A stretch of 64,000 bases of DNA, taken from positions 124,001 through 188,000 of the forward strand of contig WGLR01000010.1 of the NCBI GenBank assembly GCA_016125475.1, in the 5' to 3' direction. The stretch's first letter is position 1, and each line of letters opens with the position of its first letter. A program made the position numbers and the translations under genes. Below the pieces are notes generated by a model. It made no database searches. It saw nothing but the letters and a program-made list of their open reading frames with translations, and was not told where the DNA came from. Source of the stretch: Betaproteobacteria bacterium. GTDB taxonomy: Bacteria; Pseudomonadota; Gammaproteobacteria; Burkholderiales; Ga0077523. Below are positions 18,816 to 33,283 of this stretch, piece by piece.

Positions 18816-19223
18816 ATGGCGATGGTGAAGCTGGTGGAGTACGAGGACGCGAGTCCCGAGGTGAAGGCGGTCTACGACGACATCATGGCAACCCGCAATA
18901 CCAAGTGGATCAACAACATCTGGAAGGCGCTCGCGTCCCATCCGCCCACCCTTGCACGCATATGGTCCCAGGTGAAGGAAGTGATGGGGCCCGGCGGGCG
19001 GCTGGATCCGCTCACGAAGGAGCTGATCTACGTCGCGGTGAGCATGACCAACAACTGTGAGTACTGCATCCGTTCCCACTCGGCGGCCGCGCGCAAGAAG
19101 GGCATGGACGACGAGATCCTCGGGGAGCTCGTCGCGATCGTCTCTCTCGCGAACCAGACCAACCGGCTCGCGATCGGCTACCAGGTGGAGGTGGACGACT
19201 TCTTCATGCGGCAGCCCGAATAG
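18816..19223 (+). CDS. Carboxymuconolactone decarboxylase family protein (AhpD-like)
   Basis: A 135-residue all-helical protein with the AhpD-type redox motif Cys81-Glu-Tyr-Cys84 and His88 (CEYCIRSH). That pattern points to a peroxidase or thiol-disulfide role rather than the PcaC decarboxylase, which lacks the CxxC. The ribosome-binding site AAAGGAGA is 9 bp before the ATG. A nitroreductase gene follows after 113 bp in the same direction. Confidence 0.85.
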   Translation: MAMVKLVEYEDASPEVKAVYDDIMATRNTKWINNIWKALASHPPTLARIWSQVKEVMGPGGRLDPLTKELIYVAVSMTNNCEYCIRSHSAAARKKGMDDEILGELVAIVSLANQTNRLAIGYQVEVDDFFMRQPE

Positions 19224-19336
19224 GGCTCGATCCGCGCGACCCGAGTGCCAGGCCGGGAAGTCGCCGCGCACTGCGGAAGGCTTCCCCGTCGGGCCGTGTG
19301 TCGGCCGACACGCGTGCCGAATCGTCAGGAGAACAG

Positions 19337-20041
19337 ATGTCCAGTGAAACCCATCCGGGAATGTCCGGGCGCGAAGCTGCCGCGCTGGACGCATTGCTGA
19401 GTGCGCGATACAGCTGCCGGGCCTACCGCCCGGAGCGCGTTTCCCGCGAACTGGTCGAGCGCGCCCTGCGCATGGCGCAGCAGACGCCCTCGTGGTGCAA
19501 CACGCAGCCCTGGCGCGTGCACGTCGCCTCGGGAGCGTCGCGGGACGCGCTGATCCGGCGCCTCCACGACACGGCGAGTGCGGAAACGCCCATTCGTCCG
19601 GATTTCCCGTTTCCGGAAGCCTACGAGGGGGTGTTCAGGGACCGTCGCAAGGTGTGTGGCGTCCAGCTCTATCAGTCGCTCGGAATCGGCCGCGAGGACA
19701 GGCAGCGCGCCCGGGAACAGTCCCTCGAGAACTTCCGTGCGTTCGGGGCGCCACACATGGCGATCGTCACGACGGAGGGGGCGCTCGGGCCCTACGGGCT
19801 CCTCGACTGCGGCCTGTACCTCATGAGCGTGATGCTCGCGTTCCGCGCTCTGGGCGTCGACTGCATCGCTCAGGCGGCGCTCGCGTCCTACCCGGACCTC
19901 GTGCGCGCCCACTTCGGACTTCCCGAAACGAGGCGCGTCGTCTGCGGCCTGTCGTTCGGTTACGCGGAACCGGAGGCCGCGATCAACGGGTACAGGACGG
20001 AGCGTGCGGGCATCGACGAGGTGATCGAATGGTCGGAGTGA
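19337..20041 (+). CDS. Nitroreductase family protein
   Basis: A FMN-dependent oxidoreductase of the nitroreductase fold, 234 residues. The N-terminal motif ARYSCRAYRPERV binds FMN phosphate, TPSWCNTQPWRV follows, and the C-terminal part has GLSFGYAEPEAAIN. ATG 19337 has AGGAGA 8 bp upstream; an earlier in-frame ATG at 19298 has none. Such enzymes reduce nitro compounds or quinones with NAD(P)H; the substrate is not predictable. Confidence 0.88.
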   Translation: MSSETHPGMSGREAAALDALLSARYSCRAYRPERVSRELVERALRMAQQTPSWCNTQPWRVHVASGASRDALIRRLHDTASAETPIRPDFPFPEAYEGVFRDRRKVCGVQLYQSLGIGREDRQRAREQSLENFRAFGAPHMAIVTTEGALGPYGLLDCGLYLMSVMLAFRALGVDCIAQAALASYPDLVRAHFGLPETRRVVCGLSFGYAEPEAAINGYRTERAGIDEVIEWSE

Positions 20042-20228
20042 GGCTGCCCGTGCCGCTGGCTCCTGCATGCGATTCGCGATCCGGACGGGCGGGCGGCGGA
20101 AGGTACCCCCGGAGACTACCCGCCCGAGAACTGCAGTGCTAATCTGACCACAGTGCGTCCAACGCTCTGTTGCGACGCGACAAAACAATACGAGTCTTCG
20201 GCGACGACGTCATTCGAGCGGGGGGATC

Positions 20229-20768
20229 ATGCGCGCAGAGCACCGGATGGTCGAGGGACGGCGAGCGTTCATGAGGCGGTCTGGCGCCGTTGCGGGCCTC
20301 GGGATGGCGGGCGCGGCAGCCTGTCTTTCCGGGGGCGGGCACGCCCGCGCGCAGGCCCCGGCCGTGCTCACGCGTGAGCAGGTCCGTACCCTTGTCCTGG
20401 TGTGCCGCGACATCTATCCGCACGATCAGATCGCGGACGCGATCTACGAGCAGGTCGTGGGTGACTTCGATGCGCGTGCGGCGGGTGACAGCGAACTCGC
20501 GCGAGTCTTCGCGGAAGGTCTGCGCGACCTCGACGTCGCAGCCCGCAGTGTCGCCGGACGGCGTTACGTGGACGTCGTGGCAGATCGCACGCGCAGCCTC
20601 GTCCTCGAGCGGTTGCAGTCCGGCGACTTCTTCCAGGTCGTTCGCGGCGGTCTCGTGAGAGGGCTGTACGGGAACCCTGCCGTCTGGAAGGCACTCGGCT
20701 ACGAAGGGCCGTCGGCACGATTCGGCGGCTATCTCACGCGCGGATTCGACGACATCGACTGGCTCTGA
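20229..20768 (+). CDS. Twin-arginine exported small subunit, gluconate 2-dehydrogenase subunit 3-like
   Basis: A 179-residue protein with a Tat-type leader: Arg11-Arg12-Ala-Phe-Met-Arg followed by a hydrophobic Gly/Ala stretch and a probable cleavage near ARA-QA at residue 41. The mature part (VCRDIYPHDQIADAIYEQVV) resembles the small 'subunit 3' that accompanies membrane-linked GMC dehydrogenases. Those subunits are thought to carry the flavoprotein across the membrane, since the GMC partner here has no signal of its own. The GMC gene follows 79 bp later. Confidence 0.7.
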   Translation: MRAEHRMVEGRRAFMRRSGAVAGLGMAGAAACLSGGGHARAQAPAVLTREQVRTLVLVCRDIYPHDQIADAIYEQVVGDFDARAAGDSELARVFAEGLRDLDVAARSVAGRRYVDVVADRTRSLVLERLQSGDFFQVVRGGLVRGLYGNPAVWKALGYEGPSARFGGYLTRGFDDIDWL

Positions 20769-20847
20769 AGGGCCTTCCGTGTCCGTGTCGCGCGTGTGAG
20801 GCGCCCCGACCCGCGCTCGGAACGAACCAACGATCCGGAGGAGAACA

Positions 20848-22419
20848 ATGGCGGCGAGGTACGCGTTCGACGACGATCACGTGGTGGTGGTCGTCGGGTC
20901 GGGGGCAGGGGGCGGAACGGTCGCGGCCGACCTCGCGCTGAAGGGCGTGGAAGTGGTGCTGCTCGAAGCGGGCCGGAGATTCGACATCGACGACTTCGAG
21001 AACGACGAGTGGGCGAGCTTCGAGAAGATTTCGTGGCTCGACGCGCGCACGACGTCGGGCTCGTGGCAGATCGCGCGGGATTTTCCGGGCCTTCCGGCGT
21101 GGATCGTCAAGGGCGTCGGCGGTTCCACGCTCCACTGGGCGGGCGCCACTCTGAGACTCCAGCCACACGAGTTCAAGGCTCGTACCGTGTACGGCGGGAT
21201 TGCGGGGACCAGCCTGCTCGACTGGCCCATCTCGCTCGAGGAACTCGCGCCCTACTACGACCGGGCGGAGTTCCGGATGGGAACGACGGGTACGAACGGC
21301 ATTCCGCGGCTCCCGGGCAACAACAACTACAAGGTGTTCGCGGCGGGCGCCGCGAGGGTCGGATACCGCCGCGTCCACACCGGCAACATGTCCATCAACT
21401 CGCGTCCGCGGGACGGCAGGGCCTCGTGCCGGCAGATCGGCTTCTGCTTCCAGGGCTGCAAGTCCGGAGCGAAGTGGTCGACGTTCAACGAGGCCATTCC
21501 CCGCGGTGAAGCCTCGGGGAAGCTGGAGGTCAGGGCCGAAAGCCAGGTGCTCAGGATCCTGCACGACGACAGCGGGAAGGCGACCGGGGTCGAATACGTC
21601 GATCACGGCGGCAACATCCGGTTCCAGAAGGCGCGGGTCGCCTGCGTCGCGGGCAACTCGATCGAATCTCCGCGTCTGCTTCTCAATTCGGCATCGGGCC
21701 GATTCCCCGACGGTCTCGCGAATTCCTCGGGACAGGTCGGCCGAAACTACATGCGGCACACGACCGGGGCCGTATTCGGCGTGTTCGACCGGCCGGTCCA
21801 CATGTATCGGGGCGCGACGATGGCGGGCATCATCGAGGACGAGTCACGTCTCGACACGAAGAGGGGATTCGCGGGCGGCTACGAACTCGAAACGCTCTCG
21901 CTCGGGCTGCCGTTCCTGGCCGCGTTCCTGGGCCCCGGGCAGTGGGGCCGCGATTTCACGTGGGTGCTCGACCGCTACGCGAACATGGCCGGCCTGTGGA
22001 TCGTCGGCGAGGACATGCCGCGAGAGTCCAATCGCGTCACGCTGAATCCCGACGTGAAGGACCGGTACGGACTGCCCGTCGCGAACGTGCACGTCGACGA
22101 CCACCCGAACGACATCGCGATGCGCGCGCACGCCCATGACCGAGGGACCGCGATCTACGACGCCGTCGGGGCACTCGCGACACTTCGAACGCCACCGTTC
22201 CCCTCCACGCACAACCTCGGCACGAACCGCATGAGCGAGAAGCCGCGCGACGGCGTCGTGAACCGCTGGGGTCAGACGCACGACATCCCCAATCTCTTCG
22301 TATCCGACGGCAGCCAGTTCACGACCGGCGGCGCCGAGAATCCCACCCTGACCATCGTCGCGCTCGCCATGCGTCAGGCGGACTACATCGCGCGCGAACT
22401 CTCGGCGGGCAATCTCTGA
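20848..22419 (+). CDS. GMC family FAD-dependent dehydrogenase
   Basis: This is the large flavoprotein of a periplasmic-type alcohol/sugar dehydrogenase, 523 residues. The dinucleotide fold GSGAGGG is near residue 17 and EAG follows the second strand. GVGGSTLHWAG fits the GMC loop, and the C-terminus carries THNLGTNRMS and NPTLTIVALAMRQAD, the family's flavin/catalytic region. GGAGGAGAA lies just before the ATG. With the Tat-exported small subunit upstream it probably acts in the periplasm and passes electrons to a cytochrome. The substrate is unknown. Confidence 0.88.
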   Translation: MAARYAFDDDHVVVVVGSGAGGGTVAADLALKGVEVVLLEAGRRFDIDDFENDEWASFEKISWLDARTTSGSWQIARDFPGLPAWIVKGVGGSTLHWAGATLRLQPHEFKARTVYGGIAGTSLLDWPISLEELAPYYDRAEFRMGTTGTNGIPRLPGNNNYKVFAAGAARVGYRRVHTGNMSINSRPRDGRASCRQIGFCFQGCKSGAKWSTFNEAIPRGEASGKLEVRAESQVLRILHDDSGKATGVEYVDHGGNIRFQKARVACVAGNSIESPRLLLNSASGRFPDGLANSSGQVGRNYMRHTTGAVFGVFDRPVHMYRGATMAGIIEDESRLDTKRGFAGGYELETLSLGLPFLAAFLGPGQWGRDFTWVLDRYANMAGLWIVGEDMPRESNRVTLNPDVKDRYGLPVANVHVDDHPNDIAMRAHAHDRGTAIYDAVGALATLRTPPFPSTHNLGTNRMSEKPRDGVVNRWGQTHDIPNLFVSDGSQFTTGGAENPTLTIVALAMRQADYIARELSAGNL

Positions 22420-22737
22420 CCGGTGTGCGGCAGCCGGACTTCGATGCGACGAGACTGCCGCTGACGGCTCCCGCGCACCGCGCCCGAGGCCGATGCAATA
22501 CCCGACCCCTCCTTTCGTCGTGCGTGCAGACAGGGCGTCGGTGCGCGGAGTCTTACTGGTCGCTTGCAAAACCGCTTTCCCCGCTTGCTGCAGACTTACA
22601 TTTCCGGCAATACGGTCGTGGCTTGACTTGCGTCAACTGAACGAGCTGGTGCGACCGTAGTCTGGAACAAAACACGCAAACCAAGGCGTCGGCGATGCCG
22701 CGAGACCATGCCAACCGGAAAACGGAGGATCTGGATC
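22420..22737. other. Regulatory gap before the heme-barrel gene
   Basis: These 318 bp hold no gene. The proximal half is unremarkable. The distal half is AT-richer and carries the FNR-type box and -10 listed separately, plus the AACGGAGGA ribosome-binding site at 22721-22729 that decides the ATG 22738 start. Confidence 0.6.
22623..22663 (+). promoter_or_regulatory. FNR/CRP-family box with class II -10 element
   Basis: TTGAC-TTGC-GTCAA (22623-22636) is a perfect 5+5 inverted repeat with a 4-bp spacer, the architecture bound by FNR, Anr and Dnr regulators (consensus TTGAT-N4-ATCAA). A -10-like TAGTCT at 22658-22663 begins 28.5 bp from the box centre, giving a predicted start near 22671 with the box at about -41.5, the class II activating position. 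Confidence 0.65.
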
Positions 22738-24138
22738 ATGTGGACCTCGTGCGTGCGCGCGCGGATGTTGACGGCCGTGGCCGCAGTGGCGGTCGTCGCA
22801 GGAAGCGCATTCTCGACGAATGCCCTGGCAGTACCCAGTTTCGGAAGACAGACAGGCATGGCGTGCGAGGCCTGTCACACGGTGTTCCCGGAACTCACGC
22901 CGTTCGGACGACGCTTCAAGCTGAATGGTTACGTGATTGACAACATGCCGGTCGTGCAGGCGACCGACGAGCACGACAACAAGCAACTCACGCTGAATCA
23001 GATCCCGCCGTTGTCGGTGATGGTGCAGGCTTCCTACACGAAGATGAAGAAGTCGATACCCGACGACACGGCCGGGCTCGTGTCACCCGGCAACGCCCAG
23101 AATGGCGCAGCCGCACTGCCACAGCAGGCCAGCCTCTTCTACGCGGGGCGCATCGCGCCGAATCTCGGCGGATTCATCCAGCTCACGTATTCGAACGACA
23201 GCGACGGCGTGGGCATGGACAACCTCGACCTGCGTTTTGCGAAACACTTCAATCTCCTGGGTTCGGACACGACGTTCGGGCTGTCTCTCAACAACAATCC
23301 AACGGTACAGGATGTCTGGAACACGACACCCGCCTGGCAGTCTCCGTTCGACCAGCAATCGAATGCGGCGGTCGCCCCCGGAGCGAGCGCGATCGTGGAC
23401 GGCGCGCTCGGCGGGCAGGTCGCGGGTCTGTCGGCGTATCTCTGGTGGAACGACTCGGTGTACGCCGAACTCGGTGGCTACCGGAGTGCGCGGGCCGGAT
23501 CGAACGCCAGTCTGTTTCCCAAGGCGCAGGACGGATCGACGATCGACGGGCTGGCACCCTACTGGCGCCTTGCGTACGAGCACCTCTGGGACAGGCACTC
23601 GCTCTCGGTCGGTACGTTCGGCATGGAGACCAAGCTCGAGCCCGGCGGGACACTGCCGCTCAACGGCGTGACGGACCGTTACCGCGACGTCGGCGTCGAC
23701 AGCCAGTACCAGTACATCGGGGACGACAACATCGTGTCCGCTCAGGCGACGTACATCAACGAGAGGCAGACGCTCGGGGCCACCTTCGGCGTGCTCGGTG
23801 GCGCTTCCAATCTCGAGAACACCCTCAAGACCTGGCGTCTAGGAGGAAGCTACTTCTACCAGCGGGAATGGGGCGGGTCGCTCGGATATTTCTCGACCAA
23901 GGGGACCGCCGATTCCGGGTTGTACGCCCCCGGCGCGGTGACCGGCTACGGCATGAACGTTCCCGACAGCCGCGGCTGGCGCGCAGAACTCGATTTCATT
24001 CCCTGGGAGAACACGAAGTTCGCGCTGCAGTACGTGGTCTACAACAAGTTCAACGGTACGAGCACGAACTACGACGGCTCGGGGCGCAACGCCAAGGACA
24101 ACAATACCCTCTACCTGCTGGGATGGATCAACTTCTGA
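22738..24138 (+). CDS. Outer-membrane porin with N-terminal monoheme cytochrome c domain (Cyc2-like)
   Basis: A 466-residue exported protein. The signal peptide ends about ALA-31. A single c-heme site CEACH (43-47) lies in the context RQTGMACEACHTVFPEL followed by FGRRFKLNGY. The rest is rich in alternating polar/aromatic strands and ends in Phe (LLGWINF), as outer-membrane barrels do. One heme plus a barrel in one chain is the plan of Cyc2, the outer-membrane iron oxidase of Fe(II)-oxidising bacteria. Whether this one oxidises iron is not shown; related barrels occur in non-iron-oxidisers. ATG 22738 is favoured by AACGGAGGA eight bases upstream. A diheme cytochrome follows 33 bp later. Confidence 0.75.
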   Translation: MWTSCVRARMLTAVAAVAVVAGSAFSTNALAVPSFGRQTGMACEACHTVFPELTPFGRRFKLNGYVIDNMPVVQATDEHDNKQLTLNQIPPLSVMVQASYTKMKKSIPDDTAGLVSPGNAQNGAAALPQQASLFYAGRIAPNLGGFIQLTYSNDSDGVGMDNLDLRFAKHFNLLGSDTTFGLSLNNNPTVQDVWNTTPAWQSPFDQQSNAAVAPGASAIVDGALGGQVAGLSAYLWWNDSVYAELGGYRSARAGSNASLFPKAQDGSTIDGLAPYWRLAYEHLWDRHSLSVGTFGMETKLEPGGTLPLNGVTDRYRDVGVDSQYQYIGDDNIVSAQATYINERQTLGATFGVLGGASNLENTLKTWRLGGSYFYQREWGGSLGYFSTKGTADSGLYAPGAVTGYGMNVPDSRGWRAELDFIPWENTKFALQYVVYNKFNGTSTNYDGSGRNAKDNNTLYLLGWINF

Positions 24139-24171
24139 CAGACCCCGGCCAATGACTCTGGAGAACGATCG

Positions 24172-24780
24172 ATGAAAACCTTCATTGCGGCCACCGTCGG
24201 AGCGGCCCTCTGCATGGGCATCACGGCATCGAGTGTCGCTGCCAATCATGCCGAAGATCTCGCGACGCACACGTGCTCGCTGTGTCACGGACCGAAGGGG
24301 GAGAGCACCAGCCCCGCATTCCCGCGTCTGGCAGGACAGAACGCCGCCTACATCGAGGCACAGCTCAAGGCATTCAGGGAGCACACGCGGGGCGACCCGC
24401 CGGCGCAGGCGTTCATGTGGGGCATGACGGCCCTGCTGGACGACCAGACCATCCATGATCTTGCGCAGTACTACGCTGCCCAGAAGCCGGTGCCCGGGAC
24501 GGCCGGGGACCCCGCGCTCATGGCAGAGGGCAAGCAGATCTTCGAGCACGGCATTCCGGACAAGAAGATCATGGCCTGTGTGACGTGCCACCTCCCGGAC
24601 GCGCAGGGCAACGAGACGATTCCTCGCCTCGCGGGGCAGCACGCGGACTACATCGTCAAGCAGCTCGCGTACTTCAAGAGCGAGATCCGGAGGGACAACC
24701 CGACCATGCACGCGGCCATCGGGGGGAACATGACCCTCGACGAGATGCGTGCGATCGCGGCGTATGTCGAGTCCAAGTAG
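24172..24780 (+). CDS. Diheme cytochrome c4-type protein, periplasmic
   Basis: A 202-residue exported protein (signal peptide cleaved near SVAA-24) with two c-heme domains: CSLCH (35-39) and CVTCH (136-140). Each is followed by the PRLAGQ stretch typical of cytochrome c4. Candidate Met ligands are M82/M85 in the first domain and the Met in GGNMTLDEM in the second. It would carry electrons between the outer-membrane heme barrel, or the GMC dehydrogenase, and the inner-membrane chain. The stop overlaps the next gene's start region. Confidence 0.88.
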   Translation: MKTFIAATVGAALCMGITASSVAANHAEDLATHTCSLCHGPKGESTSPAFPRLAGQNAAYIEAQLKAFREHTRGDPPAQAFMWGMTALLDDQTIHDLAQYYAAQKPVPGTAGDPALMAEGKQIFEHGIPDKKIMACVTCHLPDAQGNETIPRLAGQHADYIVKQLAYFKSEIRRDNPTMHAAIGGNMTLDEMRAIAAYVESK

Positions 24781-25222
24781 GGCTTTCGCACGGGCAGCCG
24801 TCGCTGCCTCGGTGCTGCTCATCGCCGGGTCGGTCGCGCACGCGGCCGACCCGGCAGTGACCGAACTGCGTCAGCAGGTGGACGAACTCACGCGTCGAGT
24901 GGACATGCTCCAGCAGCGTGTCGATGCGCTCGCGAGCGGGGCAGGCAAGGGCACCGCGGCGTGCGGATCCGCTGCAGGCTGCGGCCCGGCCGGCTCGGGT
25001 GTCGATCTCATCGGGCTGCGCCGCGCGTGGCGCCGGGTGGAGCCGGGAAAGTCGGAGAGCGACGTGAAGTCGGCACTCGGCGCGCCGAGCAGGGAACTGC
25101 GGATCAACGGCAAGCGCGTGTGGTACTACGTCTATCCGGACGTCGGTGCAGGATCGGTCTTCTTCAACGACGACGGGCATGTGTCGAGCGCGAGATCTCC
25201 CTCGCTCGGCTGGGACAACTGA
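24764..25222 (+). CDS. Exported protein with SmpA/OmlA (BamE-like) domain and coiled coil
   Basis: About 152 residues. A signal peptide (AAVAASVLLIAGSVAHAAD) is followed by a short heptad-like coil (LRQQVDELTRRVDMLQQRVDAL), a Cys-containing Gly linker, and a C-terminal BamE-type domain (VEPGKSESDVKSALGAPSREL, WYYVYPD, VFFNDDGHV). ATG 24764 overlaps the cytochrome c4 gene by 17 bp in another frame; ATG 24749 is possible. Translational coupling suggests a shared role, perhaps assembly of the outer-membrane barrel encoded upstream. No lipobox is seen. Confidence 0.75.
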   Translation: MSSPSRAFARAAVAASVLLIAGSVAHAADPAVTELRQQVDELTRRVDMLQQRVDALASGAGKGTAACGSAAGCGPAGSGVDLIGLRRAWRRVEPGKSESDVKSALGAPSRELRINGKRVWYYVYPDVGAGSVFFNDDGHVSSARSPSLGWDN

Positions 25223-25233
25223 GCGCACACGCG

Positions 25234-27888
25234 TCACGCCGGGACGCCGCGAGAGAGGTCGGCCGCCGTCGGGAGGGGAATCGGACCGTGCACGTCGCCC
25301 GGGGATGCCGGTGCGGTTCCGGTGTGTGCGCCCGTTTGCGCGCGAGGAAACACGGCATCGAAGGCGGCACCGGCGCCCGGCACGTTCCGCGCGGTGATCG
25401 TCCCGCCGTGCAGGCGCATGATCTCCCGCGTGATCGACAGTCCGAGACCGGTACCTCCGGCGCCGGTCTTGGTGCGCGAACTCTGTCTGAATTTCTCGAA
25501 AACGGCTTCGAGTTCCGGTTCCGGGATGCCGACGCCGTCGTCGCTCACGCTCATCCTCAGTGCGGACACCGTGGAATGCCCGTCGGGGGCGACGAACGTG
25601 TCATCCGCGAGCGTGACGCGGATCGTGCCACCGTCGTACGAGAACTTGACGGCATTCGAGAGGAGATTCGTGAGAACCTGGTCGACCATCGACGCGTCGG
25701 CCGGGACCACGCACGACGATGTCGAGAGCAGGATCTCGAAACGCAGGCGCTTCGCGAGGAAAAGGACTTCCAGACTGCGGCCGATGTCTTCCGCCCGCGC
25801 GCGGAGGTCGACCGCACTCACTTCGACGGTCGTGCGTCCCGTCTGGAGTTTCGCGAGCGAGAGGAGATCGTCCACGAACTTTCCGAGTCTTTGCGCGCTC
25901 TCCTGGATGTTGTGCAGATAGCGTGCGAGCTTCGGAGACTGCCCGGCGTCCACCTGACGCAGTGCGAGGTCGGTGAATCCCCGGATCGCGTGGAGAGGCG
26001 TGCGCATCTCGTGTGACGCGTTCGCGAGGATCTCGTCCTTGGCGTGGTTCGCAGCCTCGGCCTGATCCCGGGCGAGGGCGAGCTCCCGGGTTCTCTCCTG
26101 CACCTTGTGCGTGAGTTCCGTCGTGTCCGTGATCAGCGTGAAGACCCCTCTCACGCGCTCATCGGCCACGTCGGGAATGTAGGTCACCCGGGCGTGTCGT
26201 CGTCGTCCGGCCGAATCCTTGTCGTCGCGCTCGAACACGCACACCTCGCCCCCGAGGGCTCTCTCCATGTAAGGAAGGCTCTGTGCAAAGGCCGGACGGC
26301 TCAGTACATCGCGAAGGTCCCGTCCGTCCACGTTGCCATCGGTGATCCCGAACCACGCCAGCATGGCCTGGTTCGCGAACTCGAAGCGAAGGTCGGCCCC
26401 CCAGTAGGAGATCATCGCGGGCACGTTGCCGATGATGGCCTGGAGGCGCTTTTCACTCTCCAGTGTGCGCTGCTGTGCGGCGCGCAGGGCGGACACGTCC
26501 CGGGTGAAGCACAGCACGTGCGACGAGCCGTCCAGTTCCAGCGAGGTGGCGCGTGTCTCCACCGGGATCGTGGAGCCGTCCGCACGCCGGACGCTTCGCG
26601 TGAAGCTCACTGGCAGGCCGGACTCCACCGTGTTCGTGATCTCGCGCGCGTCATCGAGTGTCAGCCCCTCGAACACGTCCATCACCGTCGAGCGCAGCAG
26701 CTCTTCGCGGGAATAGCCCCAGCTCCTGCACGCGGCCGGGTTTACCTCGGTGAAGCGCCCCGTGGCATCCCGCACGAAGATCGCGTCAGGCGCGTTCTCG
26801 ACGATCGCACGCAGGCGCGCCTCGCTCTGCAGGCGGCCGATGTCCGCGTTCCGGAGTTCCGTGATGTCGAGGAAGGTGGTCACGACACCCGTGATGGTCC
26901 CCGTATCCGTGGCGAACACGGGCTTCGCGTTGACGACGATCCAGACCTGTTCACCGCGCGGCAGGTGAACGCCCATGACGCAATCCCGGACCGGCGAGCC
27001 CGTACGCAGCACCACCATGGCCGGATGCTCTTCGCCCGGAAACGGGCTTCCGTCCTCGCGCATGCATCGCCAGTGAGGATCCATGGAGTCCCGGCCCATC
27101 AGCTGGTCCTCGGTCAGGCCGAGGATCTGCGAGGCCCGTTCGTTGGCCGCCACGATCCTGCCGGACGTGTCCTGTTTCACCACCCCCTCGACCATGCTGG
27201 AAAGGATGCCGCGGAGCTCCGCCTCGCTGCGGGCGAGTTCGGAGATGAAGCCCTGCTGTGTGCGGTAGTTCCAGACGATCATGAGGATGGTCACGACGGC
27301 GGCGACCGTCACGCCGAAGGCGACGACGCCCTGGCGTTCGCGGACTTCGCTCGCGACACGCTGCCGGGTCACGTGCCATTGATCGATCAGCATGTGCACG
27401 TCCGCATGGATCGCGTCGGTCAGTTGCCGGCCAGTGCCGTTTCTCACCAGATGGAGCACTTCCGCGGTACGCCCGTCGCGGCGCAGGGCGATGGTCTCGT
27501 CGGCGAACTTAACGCGGCGATCCTTCGCGGTCGTGACGCGTCTCAGGACGCGCGTCGTCTCCGGATCGTGAGCGAGCTCGGCACCCAGGTCCGTGATGTG
27601 CTCATCGAGAACCCGGATCGCGCGCGCGTACGGGGCGAGAAATGCCGCGTCCCCCGTGAGCAGGTAGCTGCGCTGGCCCGCGTCGAGGTCGGAGATGTCG
27701 TCCGACAGCGCCGTGAGTGCGGCAATCGTCTTGCTGGCGTGATCGAGCTGATGAACCGCTCCGGTCAGCAGGCTGATCTGCGCGGCGACGAACGCGATCG
27801 TCGCGACCAGGATCGCGATCTGTATCGCCACGACGTGCCGCGAGTGACGGAGGAGCCGGCCGACGCTGCCGGAATTGGGTTTACCCAC
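25234..27888 (-). CDS. Sensor histidine kinase with CHASE3 and three PAS domains
   Basis: A membrane sensor of 884 residues. A first transmembrane helix (about 20-42), a CHASE3-like helical periplasmic domain (about 45-180, with GQRSYLLTGDAAFLAPY), and a second helix (about 187-207) lead to three PAS domains (from about 220, 350 and 480). The HisKA domain has His626 in SHEMRTPLHAI, and the HATPase has GVGIPEPELEAVFEKF and GTGLGLSI. No receiver domain and no response-regulator gene are nearby, so the partner is unknown. It converges with the BamE-like gene, 11 bp apart. Confidence 0.92.
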   Translation of the reverse strand: MGKPNSGSVGRLLRHSRHVVAIQIAILVATIAFVAAQISLLTGAVHQLDHASKTIAALTALSDDISDLDAGQRSYLLTGDAAFLAPYARAIRVLDEHITDLGAELAHDPETTRVLRRVTTAKDRRVKFADETIALRRDGRTAEVLHLVRNGTGRQLTDAIHADVHMLIDQWHVTRQRVASEVRERQGVVAFGVTVAAVVTILMIVWNYRTQQGFISELARSEAELRGILSSMVEGVVKQDTSGRIVAANERASQILGLTEDQLMGRDSMDPHWRCMREDGSPFPGEEHPAMVVLRTGSPVRDCVMGVHLPRGEQVWIVVNAKPVFATDTGTITGVVTTFLDITELRNADIGRLQSEARLRAIVENAPDAIFVRDATGRFTEVNPAACRSWGYSREELLRSTVMDVFEGLTLDDAREITNTVESGLPVSFTRSVRRADGSTIPVETRATSLELDGSSHVLCFTRDVSALRAAQQRTLESEKRLQAIIGNVPAMISYWGADLRFEFANQAMLAWFGITDGNVDGRDLRDVLSRPAFAQSLPYMERALGGEVCVFERDDKDSAGRRRHARVTYIPDVADERVRGVFTLITDTTELTHKVQERTRELALARDQAEAANHAKDEILANASHEMRTPLHAIRGFTDLALRQVDAGQSPKLARYLHNIQESAQRLGKFVDDLLSLAKLQTGRTTVEVSAVDLRARAEDIGRSLEVLFLAKRLRFEILLSTSSCVVPADASMVDQVLTNLLSNAVKFSYDGGTIRVTLADDTFVAPDGHSTVSALRMSVSDDGVGIPEPELEAVFEKFRQSSRTKTGAGGTGLGLSITREIMRLHGGTITARNVPGAGAAFDAVFPRAQTGAHTGTAPASPGDVHGPIPLPTAADLSRGVPA

Positions 27889-28165: not shown

Positions 28166-28582
28166 TCAGGAAACCTGGATGCGCTTCGTCGCCGGGCCGG
28201 TGCGTTTCGGCAGCCGAAGCTCCAGTACGCCGTCATTGAACTTCGCGGTCGTCGCCCCTTCGTCCACGGACTGGGCGAGCGTGAAGCTGCGCGACACGGA
28301 ACCGTAGTAACGCTCCGAGTGGATCACGCGCTCCTTTTCCTTCTGTTCCTTCTCCGACTTCACTTCTCCGGTGATGGTCACGACGTTGCCGTCCACCGTC
28401 ACGTTGATGTCATCCTTCCTGACGCCGGGCATCTCGGCGTGCACCGTGTACGACTGGTCGTCTTCCTTGACTTCGAGCTTGATCGACGGCGCTTCCTTCA
28501 TGGCACGGGCAGGCCAGTTCCGGATGCCCTTGAAGAGGTCGTCGAGATCGGTGAACGGGTCGTAGAGCCGAATGTTTGCCAT
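28166..28582 (-). CDS. Small heat shock protein, Hsp20/alpha-crystallin family
   Basis: An ATP-independent holdase of 138 residues. The alpha-crystallin domain runs from about residue 35 to 128 (LEVKEDDQSYTVHAEMPGV, VTVDGNVVTITGEV, NDGVLELRLPK). The C-terminus ends KRIQVS. ATG 28582 follows AAGGAG on the minus strand; a much longer frame upstream is a shadow. It is 37 bp behind a DUF2934 gene and probably shares its FNR-type promoter. Confidence 0.93.
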   Translation of the reverse strand: MANIRLYDPFTDLDDLFKGIRNWPARAMKEAPSIKLEVKEDDQSYTVHAEMPGVRKDDINVTVDGNVVTITGEVKSEKEQKEKERVIHSERYYGSVSRSFTLAQSVDEGATTAKFNDGVLELRLPKRTGPATKRIQVS

Positions 28583-28619
28583 CTGTCTGCTCCTTGCGTG
28601 AAACGATTGCGAATGGCGA

Positions 28620-28883
28620 TCAGGTCCGCCGGGATGCGCGAAGCTCGGCCTCCGCGGCGAACCAGTCCTCCTCGGGCGAACCGCCCAGAAAGCCCCGGCG
28701 CTCGGCGCGGAAGTAGGCCGCCTCGGCCACCATCCGGTTCCACGACTCGGGGGCGACCGGTGCGGAGGTGCTGCGCCGGGCGCGTCGAGGCTTCTTCGGC
28801 GCCACGTCGGGGGACGGTGCCTGCGTCCGAGTGCCCGAAGGCGTGCGGTCGGAATGACGATCGTGCTGGACAGACCGTGGCAT
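28620..28883 (-). CDS. DUF2934 domain protein
   Basis: An 87-residue protein. The first half is Lys/Arg/Pro-rich; the second half has the DUF2934 pattern of an aromatic 'A-E-A-A-Y-F-R-A-E-R-R-G' helix followed by SPEEDWFAAEAEL. The function of the family is unknown; it often accompanies stress genes. GGAGGAGG lies 8 bp before the ATG. It heads a two-gene unit with Hsp20, and the FNR-type promoter lies 53-94 bp upstream of its start. Confidence 0.75.
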   Translation of the reverse strand: MPRSVQHDRHSDRTPSGTRTQAPSPDVAPKKPRRARRSTSAPVAPESWNRMVAEAAYFRAERRGFLGGSPEEDWFAAEAELRASRRT

Positions 28884-28935
28884 GTGATCAGCCTCCTCCG
28901 GGAAGCAGGACCATGGGAGAACCCGATGCGTGCGA

Positions 28936-28977
28936 ATGCTAGGCAGCCGGGCGGGCGCAGTGTTTGACCGAAGTCAA
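28936..28977 (-). promoter_or_regulatory. FNR/CRP-family box with class II -10 element, DUF2934-hsp20
   Basis: TTGAC-CGAA-GTCAA (28964-28977) is a perfect 5+5 inverted repeat with 4-bp spacer. On the minus strand TAGCAT (28941-28936) begins 29.5 bp from the box centre, so the box is centred at -41.5 from a start near 28929. That is the exact spacing of an FNR class II promoter. It drives toward DUF2934 and hsp20. Confidence 0.7.
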
Positions 28978-29047
28978 CACTCGGGACGCGTGGCACGCCT
29001 GCACACGCCACGCGTCGGCGAGGCCTTCCGCACGGGCGTGCATTCCA

Positions 29048-29077
29048 GAAAAAAAGCCCGGCCGAGTGGCCGGGCTT
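29048..29077 (-). terminator. Intrinsic terminator of the mdh/prp/acnA cluster
   Basis: AAGCCCGGCC (29054-29063) pairs with GGCCGGGCTT (29068-29077) over a 4-nt loop. On the minus strand it is followed by a run of T (complement of the A-run 29049-29055). It lies 24 bp after the acnA stop. Confidence 0.9.
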
Positions 29078-29100
29078 CATGACGTTGCGGTGAGACCGGA

Positions 29101-31806
29101 TCAGGCGGCGCTCAGGAGTTCCCTCAGCACGTAGGGAAGAATGCCGCCATGGCGGTAGTAGTCCACCTCGATCGGGGTGTCGATCCGCAGCGTGAGCGTG
29201 ACCTTCTTCCGGGTCCCGTCCTTGCGTCGGATGACCAGGGTCGCGTCCTGCTGCGGGCGCAGGTCGCCGCCGAGATCGATGTCGTACTCTTCCTCTCCCG
29301 TAATGCCGAGCGACGTGATGGAATCGGAGCCCTTGAACTGCAGCGGGAGCACGCCCATTCCGACCAGGTTCGAGCGATGGATGCGCTCGAAACTGCGTGC
29401 GATCACCGCCTTGACCCCGAGCAGCTGCGTGCCCTTCGCCGCCCAGTCGCGAGAGGAACCGGTGCCGTACTCCTCGCCGCCGAACACGACGGTGGGGGTG
29501 CCCGCGTCGATGTACTTCATCGCGGCGTCATAGATCGACATCTCGACCCCGGACGGCTGATGGATGGTCACGCCGCCCTCGACACGGGATCCGTCGGGCA
29601 GCGGGGGAATCATGAGGTTCTTGATGCGAACGTTCGCGAACGTGCCGCGCATCATGACCTCGTGGTTCCCGCGGCGGGACCCGTAGCTGTTGAAGTCCGC
29701 CTTCGCGACGCCGTTGGCGACGAGCCACTTGCCGGCGGGCGACGTCTCCTTGATCGACCCGGCCGGGGAAATGTGATCGGTCGTGATGGAATCACCGAAC
29801 ACCCCCAGCGCACGCGCCCCCCGGATGGAACTCGCACCTTCGCCGGCGGCCATCGCGAAGCCGTCGAAAAACGGCGGTTTCGCGATGTAGCTGGACGCCG
29901 GCCAGTCGTACACCTGCCCCGTCACACCCTCGACCTGCTTCCAGAGATCGCCCGGATTCTCCCTGACCTGCGCGTAGTTCTTCTTGAAGGCGGCCGGGCT
30001 CATCGCGTACTTCATGAGCGCGTAGATCTCTTCGCTGGTCGGCCAGATGTCGCCCAGGTAGACGTCCTTGCCGCCCTTGCCGGTGCCGACGGGCTCGGTC
30101 ATGAGGTCCTTCGTGATCGTGCCCGCGATCGCGTAGGCGACGACGAGCGGGGGAGACGCCAGGAAGTTCGCCTTGAGGTTGGGGTGGATCCGCGCCTCGA
30201 AGTTGCGGTTGCCCGAGAGCACGGCTGCACAGACGAGGTCGTTCGAGGTGATCGCGTCGTTGATCTCGGGAGCGAGGTCGCCCGCGTTGCCGATGCAGGT
30301 CGTGCAGCCGTAGGCCGCGACGCTGAACCCGAGCTGCTCCAGGTACGGAAGCAGCCCCGCGCGCTGCAGGTACTCGGTGACGATCCGCGAACCCGGTGCG
30401 AGCGAGGTCTTGATGTGCGGCCGCACGGTGAGACCGGCCTTCACCGCCTTCTTCGCGAGCAGGCCGGCCGCGAGCAGGACGCCCGGGTTGGAGGTGTTCG
30501 TGCACGAGGTGATCGCCGCGATCAGCACGTCGCCGTTGCGCAGCTCGATGCCGCTCCCCGTCGTGAACACTTCCTCGAGCTTCTGCGCAGGCTGGTTGAA
30601 GCCGTTCTCGGCGGTGGGCTTGCTGAAGAGGTTCGTGAACTGGGACTTGACGTTCCCGATCTCGATGCGGTCCTGCGGCCGCTTCGGACCGGCGAGGGAG
30701 GGCGCCACGCTCGAGAGGTCGAGCTCGACGACCTTCGTGTAGTCGATCTGGCCGGCGCGCGGGATGCCGAACATCTTCTGCGCCTTGAAGTAGGCCTCGA
30801 ACGCGTCGATCTCGGCTTTCGTGCGGCCCGTGCCACGGAAGTACTCGACGGTCTTGGCATCGACAGGGAAGAAGCCCATCGTCGCGCCGTACTCCGGTGC
30901 CATGTTGCCGATGGTCGCGCGATCGGGAAGGGCGAGGCTTTCGGTGCCTTCGCCGAAGAACTCGACGAACTTGCCCACGACCTTCTCCCGGCGGAGCATT
31001 TCGGTGATCGTGAGCACGAGGTCGGTGGCCGTGACGCCTTCGCGCAGCCGGCCCTTGAGCTCGACACCGACCACGTCGGGCGTGAGGAAGTAAACGGGCT
31101 GGCCCAGCATGCCGGCTTCGGCCTCGATGCCGCCGACACCCCAGCCCACGACTCCGATGCCGTTGATCATCGTCGTGTGGCTGTCGGTACCCACGAGGGT
31201 GTCGGGGTAGTAGATGCCATCCTTGCGGTGCACGCCGCGCGCGAGGTACTCGAGGTTCACCTGGTGCACGATGCCGAAGCCGGGCGGGACGACACCGAAG
31301 GTGTCGAACGCCTGCATGCCCCATTTCATGAACTGGTAACGCTCGCGGTTGCGCTGGAACTCGAGCTTCATGTTGAGATCGAGCGAGTCCTTGCCCCGGT
31401 AGTGATCGATCATGACCGAGTGGTCGACGACGAGATCGACGGGCACGAGCGGCTCGATGGTCTTGGGGTCCTTGCCCATGTCCGCCGTGACGTTGCGCAT
31501 CGCGGCGAGGTCCGCGAGCAGCGGGACGCCGGTGAAGTCCTGAAGCACGACGCGCGCGACGACGAACGGAATCTCCTCGGTGCGTTCGGCGTTCGGCCTC
31601 CAGGCCGCGAGCCGGCGCACGTGCTCCTCGGTGACTTTCTTGCCGTCACAGTTCCGGAGCACGGATTCGAGAACGATCCGGATGGACACCGGCAGGCGCG
31701 AGATCTTGCCGAGACCGGCCTTCTCGAGCGCGGGCAGCGAGTAGAACTTGCCCTTCTTGCTGCCGACCGCGAACTCTTGCAGCGACTTGAACAGGTTGTG
31801 GCTCAT
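29101..31806 (-). CDS. acnA: Aconitate hydratase A
   Basis: This [4Fe-4S] enzyme isomerises citrate to isocitrate; in this setting it can also hydrate 2-methyl-cis-aconitate to 2-methylisocitrate. At 901 residues it is close to E. coli AcnA (891). Cluster ligands are in [11 protein letters not shown] and [12 protein letters not shown]. Other landmarks are VGTDSHTTM in the first third and [16 protein letters not shown] and [15 protein letters not shown] in the C-terminal domain. It is the last gene of the minus-strand set, 25 bp after prpD. Confidence 0.96.
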
Positions 31807-31831
31807 GTCAGGCTCCGATGTGGGAACGCGA

Positions 31832-33283
31832 TCAAATCACGAACAGGTCGACGAACTCGTGCACCGGCGTGGCCGCGAGTTTCTTCGCGTCCATGCAGAG
31901 GTCCAGGATCGCGGCCTGCTGCTTGGACGGAAACCGGCGCGCGAGGTTGGTCCGGAACTTCTCGACGAGGACGGGCATGCCTTCCTTGCGGCGGCGCTTG
32001 TGGCCGATGGGGTACTCGCACACCACTTCCTTGAGTTTCTTGCCGTCGTTGAATTCGACGGTCAGCGCGTTCGCGATCGAGCGCTTCTCGGGGTCGTGGT
32101 AGTCCTTCGTGAACTGCTTGTCCTCGACGCAGACGATCTTGTCGCGAAGCTTGTCGATGCGCGGATCGGACGCGATGTCGTCCTCGTAGTCGCCGGCGGT
32201 CAGGCGCCCGAACAGGAGCGGCACGGCGACCATGTACTGGATGCAGTGGTCGCGGTCGGCCGGATTGTTCAGCGGCCCCTTCTTGTCGATGATGCGGATG
32301 CAGGCCTCGTGCGTGCGGATCGTGATCTTCTTGATGTCCTGCGCGCTCTTGCCGAGCTTCGCGAGCTGCGCGTGGATCTGCATGGCGCACTCGACCGCGG
32401 TCTGCGAGTGGAACTCGGCGGGGAAGGAGATCTTGAACAGCACGTTCTCCATCACGTAGCTGCCGTAGGGGCGCTGGAACTTGAAGGGGTTGCCCTTGAA
32501 CAGCACGTCGTAGAAACCCCAGGTCTTCGCGCTGAGGACGGAGGGATAGCCCATCTCGCCCGTCTTCGCGATCAGCGCGAGGCGCACGGCGCGGGAGGTC
32601 GCGTCACCTGCTGCCCAGCTCTTGCGGGAGCCGGTGTTCGGGGCGTGGCGATAGGTCCGGAGGGACTGGCCATCGACCCACGCGAGCGACACGGCGTTGA
32701 TGATCTCGTCGCGCGAGAGGCCGAGCATCTGGGCGACCACCGCCGTCGACGCGACCTTCACGAGGACGACGTGATCGAGCCCGACCTTGTTGAAACTGTT
32801 CTCGAGCGCGATGCACCCCTGGATCTCGTGCGCCTTGATCATGGCGGTGAGGACGTCCTGCATCGTGAGCGGCTTGCGCCCCGCCGCGATCGCATTGCGC
32901 GAGAGCCAGTCCGCCGTCGCGAGGATGCCACCGAGGTTGTCGGAGGGGTGACCCCACTCGGCCGCGAGCCACGTGTCGTTGAAGTCGAGCCACCGGATCA
33001 TCGCGCCGATGTTGAAGGCGGCCTGCACCGGGTCGAGCTGGAACTGGGTGCCGGGAACCTTCGCACCGTTGGGGACGACCGTGCCCGGCACGACGGGTCC
33101 GAGGAGCTTCGTGCAGGCGGGATACTCGAGCGCTTCCAGGCCGCAGCCGAGCGTGTCCATCAGGCAGTAACGGGCGGTTTCGTAGGCTTCCTTGCCGGTG
33201 ACCTTGAACTTCGTCACGTAGTCGACGATGTCGACGAGGACCTTGTCGGGTTTCGGGCGAACGTTGGAAATGTGAGCAGACAT
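31832..33283 (-). CDS. prpD: 2-methylcitrate dehydratase
   Basis: It dehydrates 2-methylcitrate to 2-methyl-cis-aconitate in propionate catabolism. Its 483 residues equal E. coli PrpD. The MmgE/PrpD fold is recognisable: [16 protein letters not shown] near the N-terminus, [23 protein letters not shown], and [21 protein letters not shown] region in the middle. It lies between prpC and acnA; a cofactor-independent PrpD together with AcnA gives the classical route. Confidence 0.96.

Follow-up and report, generated by a model that had tools for sequence, protein, structure and literature searches.

The window analysed here is a stretch of 64,000 nucleotides from the draft genome of a Betaproteobacteria bacterium (contig WGLR01000010.1, positions 124,001 to 188,000; the genome comprises 4.88 Mb in 48 contigs and is 97% complete), and it carries at 20229..25222 five genes in one direction, which encode a small subunit (SSU), a GMC flavoprotein, a Cyc2-type fused monoheme cytochrome-porin, a diheme cytochrome c4 and a BamE-like protein. 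These genes probably make up two neighbouring, separate modules, namely an SSU-GMC dehydrogenase and a cyc2-c4-bamE outer-membrane uptake system, for which Fe2+ would be the most likely donor and which is probably switched by an FNR/ANR-type regulator. All five genes described in the initial annotation are present; that annotation, made from the sequence alone, had proposed that the GMC enzyme and the Cyc2-like protein could share one electron route across the outer membrane. Such a pairing, if true, would have represented a novel type of wire; the gene-order check was negative, and a GMC-to-Cyc2 wire is unsupported.

Gene order in other genomes was the most informative evidence on a link between the two modules. 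In 68 other Cyc2 loci, with flanks of 5–8 kb a side examined for most and less for some, no GMC gene (>50 bits) and no small-subunit gene (>40 bits) was found near Cyc2; conversely, the 23 GMC loci examined elsewhere lacked Cyc2. The reading of GMC and Cyc2 as a single conserved system was therefore rejected. The count covers 68 of 69 Cyc2 loci since one, L039, has no Cyc2 match above 60 bits, and it includes near-copies (L122, L123 and L125; also L019 and L021), while on five short contigs (L020, L126, L127, L134 and L147) a more distant GMC gene would have escaped notice. Both GMC and Cyc2 are also present in two more genomes of the order sample, G161 and G171, but on different contigs, which is weak evidence in drafts. 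As well, no work joining Cyc2 or a porin-cytochrome with a GMC oxidoreductase or gluconate 2-dehydrogenase subunit 3 turned up among the papers listed, subscription journals being mostly uncovered; two papers with both Cyc2 and glucose-methanol-choline concern plants, judging from their titles.

Within the window's genus, a Cyc2 match is present in none of the 11 sampled genomes and GMC in 10 of them. The orthologous place is intact in seven congeners (loci L070–L076), where GMC is followed by an RHH gene (7/7), a gene for a 901-amino-acid (aa) protein (7/7) and one for a 483-aa protein (6/7, one contig ending there), with two additional genes intervening in one of the seven. In the window, the 901-aa and 483-aa genes (29101..33283, minus strand), which from their labels by eye are presumably aconitase-like and PrpD-like and are syntenic with the congeners (81–87% in 7/7 and 89–92% in 6/7 loci), lie beyond a kinase gene and an hsp20 gene, and a segment of about 6.5 kb comprising cyc2, c4, the bamE-like gene, the kinase gene and hsp20 occupies the position of the congeners' RHH gene. 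The genes listed from GMC to the 901-aa gene in the seven congener loci, which were called by a simple script so that unlabelled open reading frames (ORFs) are possibly wrong, include no kinase, and HSP20 gave no row above 45% identity in L070–L092. A search for the RHH regulator in the rest of the window's genome, which is 97% complete, found none; this search had no positive control. We infer that the segment was inserted, and the adjacency of GMC and Cyc2 is very probably a neighbourhood made by this insertion.

The gene of the Cyc2-type protein lies at 22738..24138 on the plus strand (longest ORF from 22708), with a likely start at ATG 22738 behind a GGAGG read from the sequence, and its product has 466–476 aa depending on the start, above the 365 residues that a Cyc2 with its fused porin is expected to exceed. 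Scans for Pfam and NCBIfam families gave no match for the protein, nor did a PDB sequence search at E <= 1, and a PDB profile search returned one match only (E 0.29). Full-length relatives are present in many genomes, and a chance ORF or a pseudogene was rejected because open full-length homologues exist. Cyc2 proteins have been described as having a single CXXCH, preceded by AXPXFAR[Q/K][T/Y] and followed by PXL, and a barrel of 16 strands resembling OprO and OprP (PMC8406198); membership was scored here by this published motif. The heme region of the window protein reads AVPSFGRQTGMA-CEACH-TVFPEL, behind a signal peptide judged by eye, with CEACH at residues 53–57 of the 476-aa ORF as its sole CxxCH. 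AVPSFGRQT, which precedes GMA and CEACH, has 6 of the 7 fixed positions of the strict motif, and the PxL is found as TVF-PEL, four residues past the heme histidine. Among 90 family rows, the relaxed motif is present in all and a PxL within 11 residues in 86; as these rows were picked by homology with a profile, the match is a matter of consistency and no independent test. Four relatives 60% identical to the window protein (L019–L022) have the strict motif exactly.

The predicted model of the mature chain has 16 strands of at least 8 residues, with a mean predicted local distance difference test score (pLDDT) of 51 and a predicted template-modelling score of 0.60; it replaced a first model that kept the signal peptide (pLDDT 43), both being built from 7 sequences. 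VIA-align, which re-aligns Foldseek's own candidates only, put general porins on top (E. coli OmpF model, Z 18.9, 285 residues aligned, root-mean-square deviation 4.5), and also matched OprO (4rjw; Z 17.4, 305 aligned, deviation 4.2) and OprP (2o4v; Z 17.0, 300 aligned, deviation 4.1), which were named as structural homologues of Cyc2 (PMC8406198). The heme motif region, the full-length homology and the porin-like fold matches thus bear out the initial view of a Cyc2-like protein, including, at low confidence, its predicted barrel, and they place the protein in the Cyc2 cytochrome-porin family, in which it would bind its heme and form a barrel.

In a quick tree of 90 rows without named cluster references, from which 3 short rows and exact repeats were left out, the window protein falls in a ten-row clade (support 99) within a 78-row group, apart from three families (f79, f25 and f37) that are probably cluster 1, the Cyc2 of classic neutrophilic iron oxidisers; a further alignment (A2) held 42 of 48 relatives, near-identical ones having been left out by hand. 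The row of an Ideonella plasmid, filed in Sphaerotilaceae, groups within the same 78-row group, and the Leptothrix–Sphaerotilus group except L. ochracea was reported to have cluster 2 cyc2 only (PMC11412304), so the window Cyc2 is likely to be of cluster 2. The family has a match in 89 of the 399 genomes and 42 of the 159 genera of the order sample; in viral contigs none was found, one pattern match being unconfirmed. The window protein is 36% identical to a homologue on Acidithiobacillus ferrooxidans and Acidiphilium plasmids, a figure that concerns this plasmid homologue and not the chromosomal Cyc2 of A. ferrooxidans. With the Cyc2 of known oxidisers (Mariprofundus PV-1, A. ferrooxidans; clusters 1–3) it shares an N-terminal single CxxCH, the AxPxF-RQT and PxL elements, a mature length of about 440 aa, a predicted 16-strand barrel with OprO and OprP matches, and a c4 gene next downstream, whereas it differs in having FGR for FAR, a BamE-like partner, an FNR/ANR-type box and no rusticyanin or cox genes beside cyc2, and it is distant from the rows of the three probable cluster 1 families. 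A distant monoheme protein of barrel size (L017/L039, G034:C32:25387-25650), which carries AIPAFARMYGMA-CGACH and PALN, differs from the other Cyc2 rows and sits on a long tree branch, is possibly a member of another cytochrome-porin family.

Directly behind cyc2, the diheme cytochrome c4 gene (Cyc1-like; 24172..24780, plus strand) encodes a protein whose best PDB match is 1h1o (E 8.4e-39), ahead of 1etp (E 1.1e-27); the first is the c4 depicted in the iron chain of A. ferrooxidans, the second the c4 from Pseudomonas stutzeri (PMC5982212). Like 1h1o, the window protein is a diheme c4, and cyc1 directly follows cyc2 in the rus operon of A. ferrooxidans (PMC10654088) as c4 does here, while the window's cyc2-c4 pair stands without the remaining rus genes. 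Of the 67 other Cyc2 loci having at least 1 kb downstream, 41 have a c4 gene no more than 500 bp past cyc2, a recurrence that places the order beyond chance, and 52 have some CxxCH-bearing ORF downstream. The fifth gene (24764..25222, plus strand, from ATG 24764; ORF from GTG 24749) overlaps c4 by 17 bases and encodes a coiled-coil plus BamE-domain protein (Pfam BamE, 27 bits against a cut-off of 23.2), with relatives in 10 of the 67 loci. Gene order is therefore conserved for Cyc2-c4 and, in part of the family, for the BamE-like gene, as the initial annotation would have it, and not for GMC-Cyc2, GMC being intact without Cyc2 in the seven congeners. The BamE-like proteins (window; L020–L025, L028, L126, L129, L133) have a coiled coil, a Pro/Ala-rich linker and a BamE-like end with a conserved WYYxYPGxGxGSVFF-like stretch, and among four of them scanned the window member alone passes the Pfam BamE cut-off. 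No report tying Cyc2 to BamE turned up among the papers listed, with subscription journals mostly uncovered; the two that contain both terms deal, judging from their titles, with Cyclospora and with kinase inhibitors.

About 100 bp upstream of the cyc2 start, at 22623..22636 (no strand), there is a palindrome, TTGACTTGCGTCAA, which has the form of an FNR/ANR/FixK site, TTGAT-N4-ATCAA. An FNR-type palindrome has been described in Herbaspirillum, without letters (PMC5934665). The pattern TTGA-N6-TCAA was counted in upstream regions of 400 bp ending 120 bp before the CxxCH codons, and it is present in 26 of 88 Cyc2 upstream regions, or 25 of 84 once regions sharing a 40-mer were removed, while first-order random sequences give an expectation of 0.96 of 88, 11 permuted half-sites give 0–2 and 15 other spacings 0–5. 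The full TTGAT-N4-ATCAA is present in 12 Cyc2 upstream regions. In the window's ten-row clade 9 of 10 rows have the box, two of them near-copies, against 1 of 10 rows of the supposed cluster 1 that have enough upstream DNA, and none of 21 SSU-GMC upstream regions has it. The whole genome contains 33 boxes of the form TTGAY-N4-RTCAA and 2 of the reversed pattern. One of the 33 precedes the ccoN start by about 95 bp (TIGR00780, 782 bits against a cut-off of 583), another the gene for Fnr by about 33 bp (Fnr model, 256 bits against a cut-off of 228; cysteines CSTCGLRELC), both starts being chosen by eye. Both ccoN and fnr are well-known FNR targets, and their boxes act as internal positive controls. 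The box with its enrichment upstream of cyc2 is a new regulatory finding, and it suggests FNR/ANR control of these genes; no report of an FNR/ANR-type box for cyc2 turned up among the papers listed, again with subscription journals mostly uncovered. Whether many Cyc2 homologues outside the classic oxidisers oxidise iron is an open question (PMC8406198, PMC10734462), on which the box upstream of 25 of 84 homologues offers a direct handle, in that it predicts when cyc2 genes are on and hence when to test for iron oxidation. Surveys of Cyc2 should consider both this regulation and the BamE-like partner.

The first module is a periplasmic FAD dehydrogenase of the fructose/FAD-glucose-dehydrogenase type, which occurs across the order without Cyc2. 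Its Tat-signal small, 'hitchhiker'-type subunit (20229..20768, plus strand; the start may be ATG 20247), with the twin-arginine motif GRRAFM, scored 17.7 bits against Pfam Gluconate_2-dh3, below the cut-off of 23.4; of the 21 sequences in its family alignment, 16 match the model at E <= 0.1. A PDB profile search with the small subunit found no gamma subunit (best E 0.017, unrelated molecules), so its link to the solved gamma subunit comes from Pfam and gene order. The GMC flavoprotein (20848..22419, plus strand), of the large-subunit type of fructose dehydrogenase (FDH) and FAD-dependent glucose dehydrogenase (FAD-GDH), has GMC N and C domains both above the Pfam cut-off, and its nearest solved structures in PDB are FDH 7w2j (E 6.4e-50) and glucose dehydrogenase 6a2u (E 2.2e-45). 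A C-x5-C-x3-C, in the window C194, C200 and C204, is present in 28 of 28 GMC sequences, among them that of the window and three distant ones, and is aligned with the FDH cysteines. In BcGDH the corresponding Cys212, Cys218 and Cys222 hold a 3Fe-4S cluster, and GMC enzymes of this type pass electrons to a c-type cytochrome (PMC6719666). Like FAD-GDH (BcGDH, 6a2u) and FDH (7w2j), the window thus has a GMC flavoprotein with three iron-sulfur cysteines and a Tat small subunit encoded just upstream of it. Unlike those complexes, it has no gene for a triheme c-type beta subunit adjoining GMC, and an arginine replaces the fourth, disulfide-forming cysteine of BcGDH; since the beta subunit is lacking there, the enzyme is described as of FAD-GDH/FDH type and not classed as a complete member. 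A small monoheme cytochrome gene adjoins GMC in two other genera (L077, L083).

A search of the 399 genomes of the order sample (match, E <= 1e-60) found GMC in 37, with a tight group above 690 bits at 24 places besides the window and the remainder below 270 bits; 23 of these 24 loci were examined, L062 (3.9 kb) lying outside the GMC table. The small subunit adjoins GMC in 22 of the 23, the remaining contig ending there. An RHH gene is near GMC in 14 of the 23, upstream in one of these, and one RHH protein run against Pfam matched RHH_4 (73.9 bits). The RHH gene is kept downstream of SSU-GMC across several families (L077, L079, L080, L083, L084, L086 and the congeners), and the RHH protein is likely to be a regulator of the SSU-GMC enzyme.

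The arrangement in the window could be taken for a single outward pathway, in which GMC oxidises a periplasmic substrate and the electrons leave through c4 and Cyc2 for Fe(III) or another acceptor outside the cell. GMC and cyc2 are on the same strand, 318 bp apart, with no terminator-like site between them, and a BcGDH-type GMC, here with no triheme subunit gene beside it, hands electrons to a c-type cytochrome (PMC6719666). Set against this are the absent pairing at all other Cyc2 and GMC loci, the intact GMC unit without Cyc2 in seven congeners, the box upstream of cyc2 and of none of the 21 SSU-GMC units and, as weak evidence, the different contigs in G161 and G171, which together make such a pathway very improbable. 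An assembly error that joined unrelated stretches, so that the neighbourhood is an artefact, can be imagined for a draft of 48 contigs with an arrangement seen in none of the seven congener loci; however, synteny with the congeners holds on either side (SSU-GMC; the 901/483-aa genes), so that a 298-kb contig would have to contain two misjoins, and the GC content of four inserted genes measured, 62.5–68.6%, is like the 67.1% of the window, leaving this explanation with a negligible chance.

The direction of uptake would also be inward if the donor were not Fe2+ and were instead another metal, a reduced organic compound or a sulfur or nitrogen compound, and Cyc2 might also serve in detoxification or sensing instead of energy gain. 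The family is wide (42 genera of the order sample), the function of many cluster 2 and 3 homologues is called unproven (PMC8406198, PMC10734462), and no carbon-fixing RuBisCO was seen in the window's genome. Nevertheless, the solved structure closest to the c4 partner is that of an iron-chain c4 (1h1o). Fe2+ at neutral pH persists only where oxygen is low, and oxygen-type control by the box therefore fits Fe2+ as the donor. We regard a donor or role other than Fe2+ uptake as unlikely, albeit worth keeping in mind.

The preferred reading, of two separate modules with Fe2+ uptake by the second, has points to weigh against it. FAR of the strict motif reads FGR in the window Cyc2, one residue off the consensus, and of the 90 family rows 56 have the strict motif letter for letter and 34, the window among these, do not. 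The structure model is weak, especially in its heme part (residues 1–60, pLDDT below 50), and was built from 7 sequences. The exact box is missing from 62 of 88 upstream regions and from 1 of 10 in the window's clade, and because the rows are related, the box counts, including 25 of 84, are not independent events. Moreover, c4 is absent from the 500 bp behind cyc2 in 26 of 67 loci, and the BamE-like gene is absent from 57 of 67. In 20000–25400, no sigma-70 promoter was found and terminator-like sites numbered 3 against 2.8 expected, none of them between GMC and cyc2, so read-through from GMC is possible. The sole RuBisCO-family match of the genome (G000:C22:62865-66698, L191), which adjoins an SDR gene and a four-carbon-acid-sugar-kinase-like gene (named by eye), is probably a RuBisCO-like catabolic enzyme; lithoautotrophy is therefore not indicated, the organism is probably not a lithoautotroph by the RuBisCO route, and Cyc2 would be a side line. 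In addition, a cluster 2 Cyc2 needs supporting context before an iron-oxidase call (PMC10734462), and cyc2 expression alone is no proof of iron oxidation (PMC12442390).

Taken as two modules, the genes would work as follows. The small subunit, with its Tat signal, would export the GMC flavoprotein to the periplasm, where electrons of an alcohol or sugar would pass from the flavoprotein to its [3Fe-4S] cluster and on to a periplasmic cytochrome. Separately, low oxygen would activate Fnr, which may turn on cyc2-c4-bamE along with the cbb3 oxidase; the genome has four COX1-family genes, one being ccoN and one an aa3-type subunit (NCBIfam). The small N-terminal heme domain of Cyc2 is predicted to sit at or in the 16-strand barrel and to take electrons at the outer membrane from a dissolved donor, most likely Fe2+, and c4 would carry these across the periplasm to a terminal oxidase, probably cbb3, while the BamE-like protein probably assists in assembling or anchoring the barrel. 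More broadly, and as a tentative proposal that may well need revision, Burkholderiales-type Cyc2 might be an FNR/ANR-controlled low-oxygen uptake module that moves between genomes and is wired to c4 and cbb3, helped in one clade by an undescribed coiled-coil/BamE-domain protein, with which heterotrophs would have iron oxidation as a sideline to be switched on and off.

Other features of the window flank or share the presumably inserted segment. A CHASE3-PAS sensor histidine kinase gene (Pfam; 25234..27888, minus strand), convergent with the bamE-like gene, and an HSP20-family ORF (Pfam HSP20, 75.7 bits; 28166..29080, minus strand, likely start near 28582) lie within the segment absent from the congeners. 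The sole exact TTGA-N6-TCAA box in the window besides that of cyc2 is at 28964..28977 (no strand), about 380 bp before the likely hsp20 start in this segment, and an Rfam scan of the window gave no match. Upstream of the small subunit are a carboxymuconolactone-decarboxylase/AhpD-like gene (18816..19223, plus strand; Pfam CMD, 63 bits), at which the congeners' GMC cluster starts, and a nitroreductase-family gene (19298..20041, plus strand; Pfam Nitroreductase, 90 bits), both of which adjoin GMC in congener loci L070–L072, L074 and L075.

Homologues of cyc2 are also carried by plasmids, of which 8 of 9 records were surveyed, H2 being left out as like H1. On the Caballeronia, Ideonella, Polymorphobacter, Methylocystis, Acidiphilium and A. 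ferrooxidans plasmids cyc2 is followed by a c-type cytochrome gene, and on a Paraburkholderia plasmid the cytochrome gene is upstream of cyc2. A transposase gene is present in all 8 plasmid stretches, and in the A. ferrooxidans and Acidiphilium records it immediately adjoins cyc2. The same Cyc2 gene is found on A. ferrooxidans and Acidiphilium plasmids (L122, L123, L125), and the annotation of A. multivorum splits it into two pieces. The Caballeronia plasmid has, 0.8 kb upstream of cyc2-c4, a gene for a high-potential iron-sulfur protein (L118, 6936–7247), which is possibly a further electron carrier.

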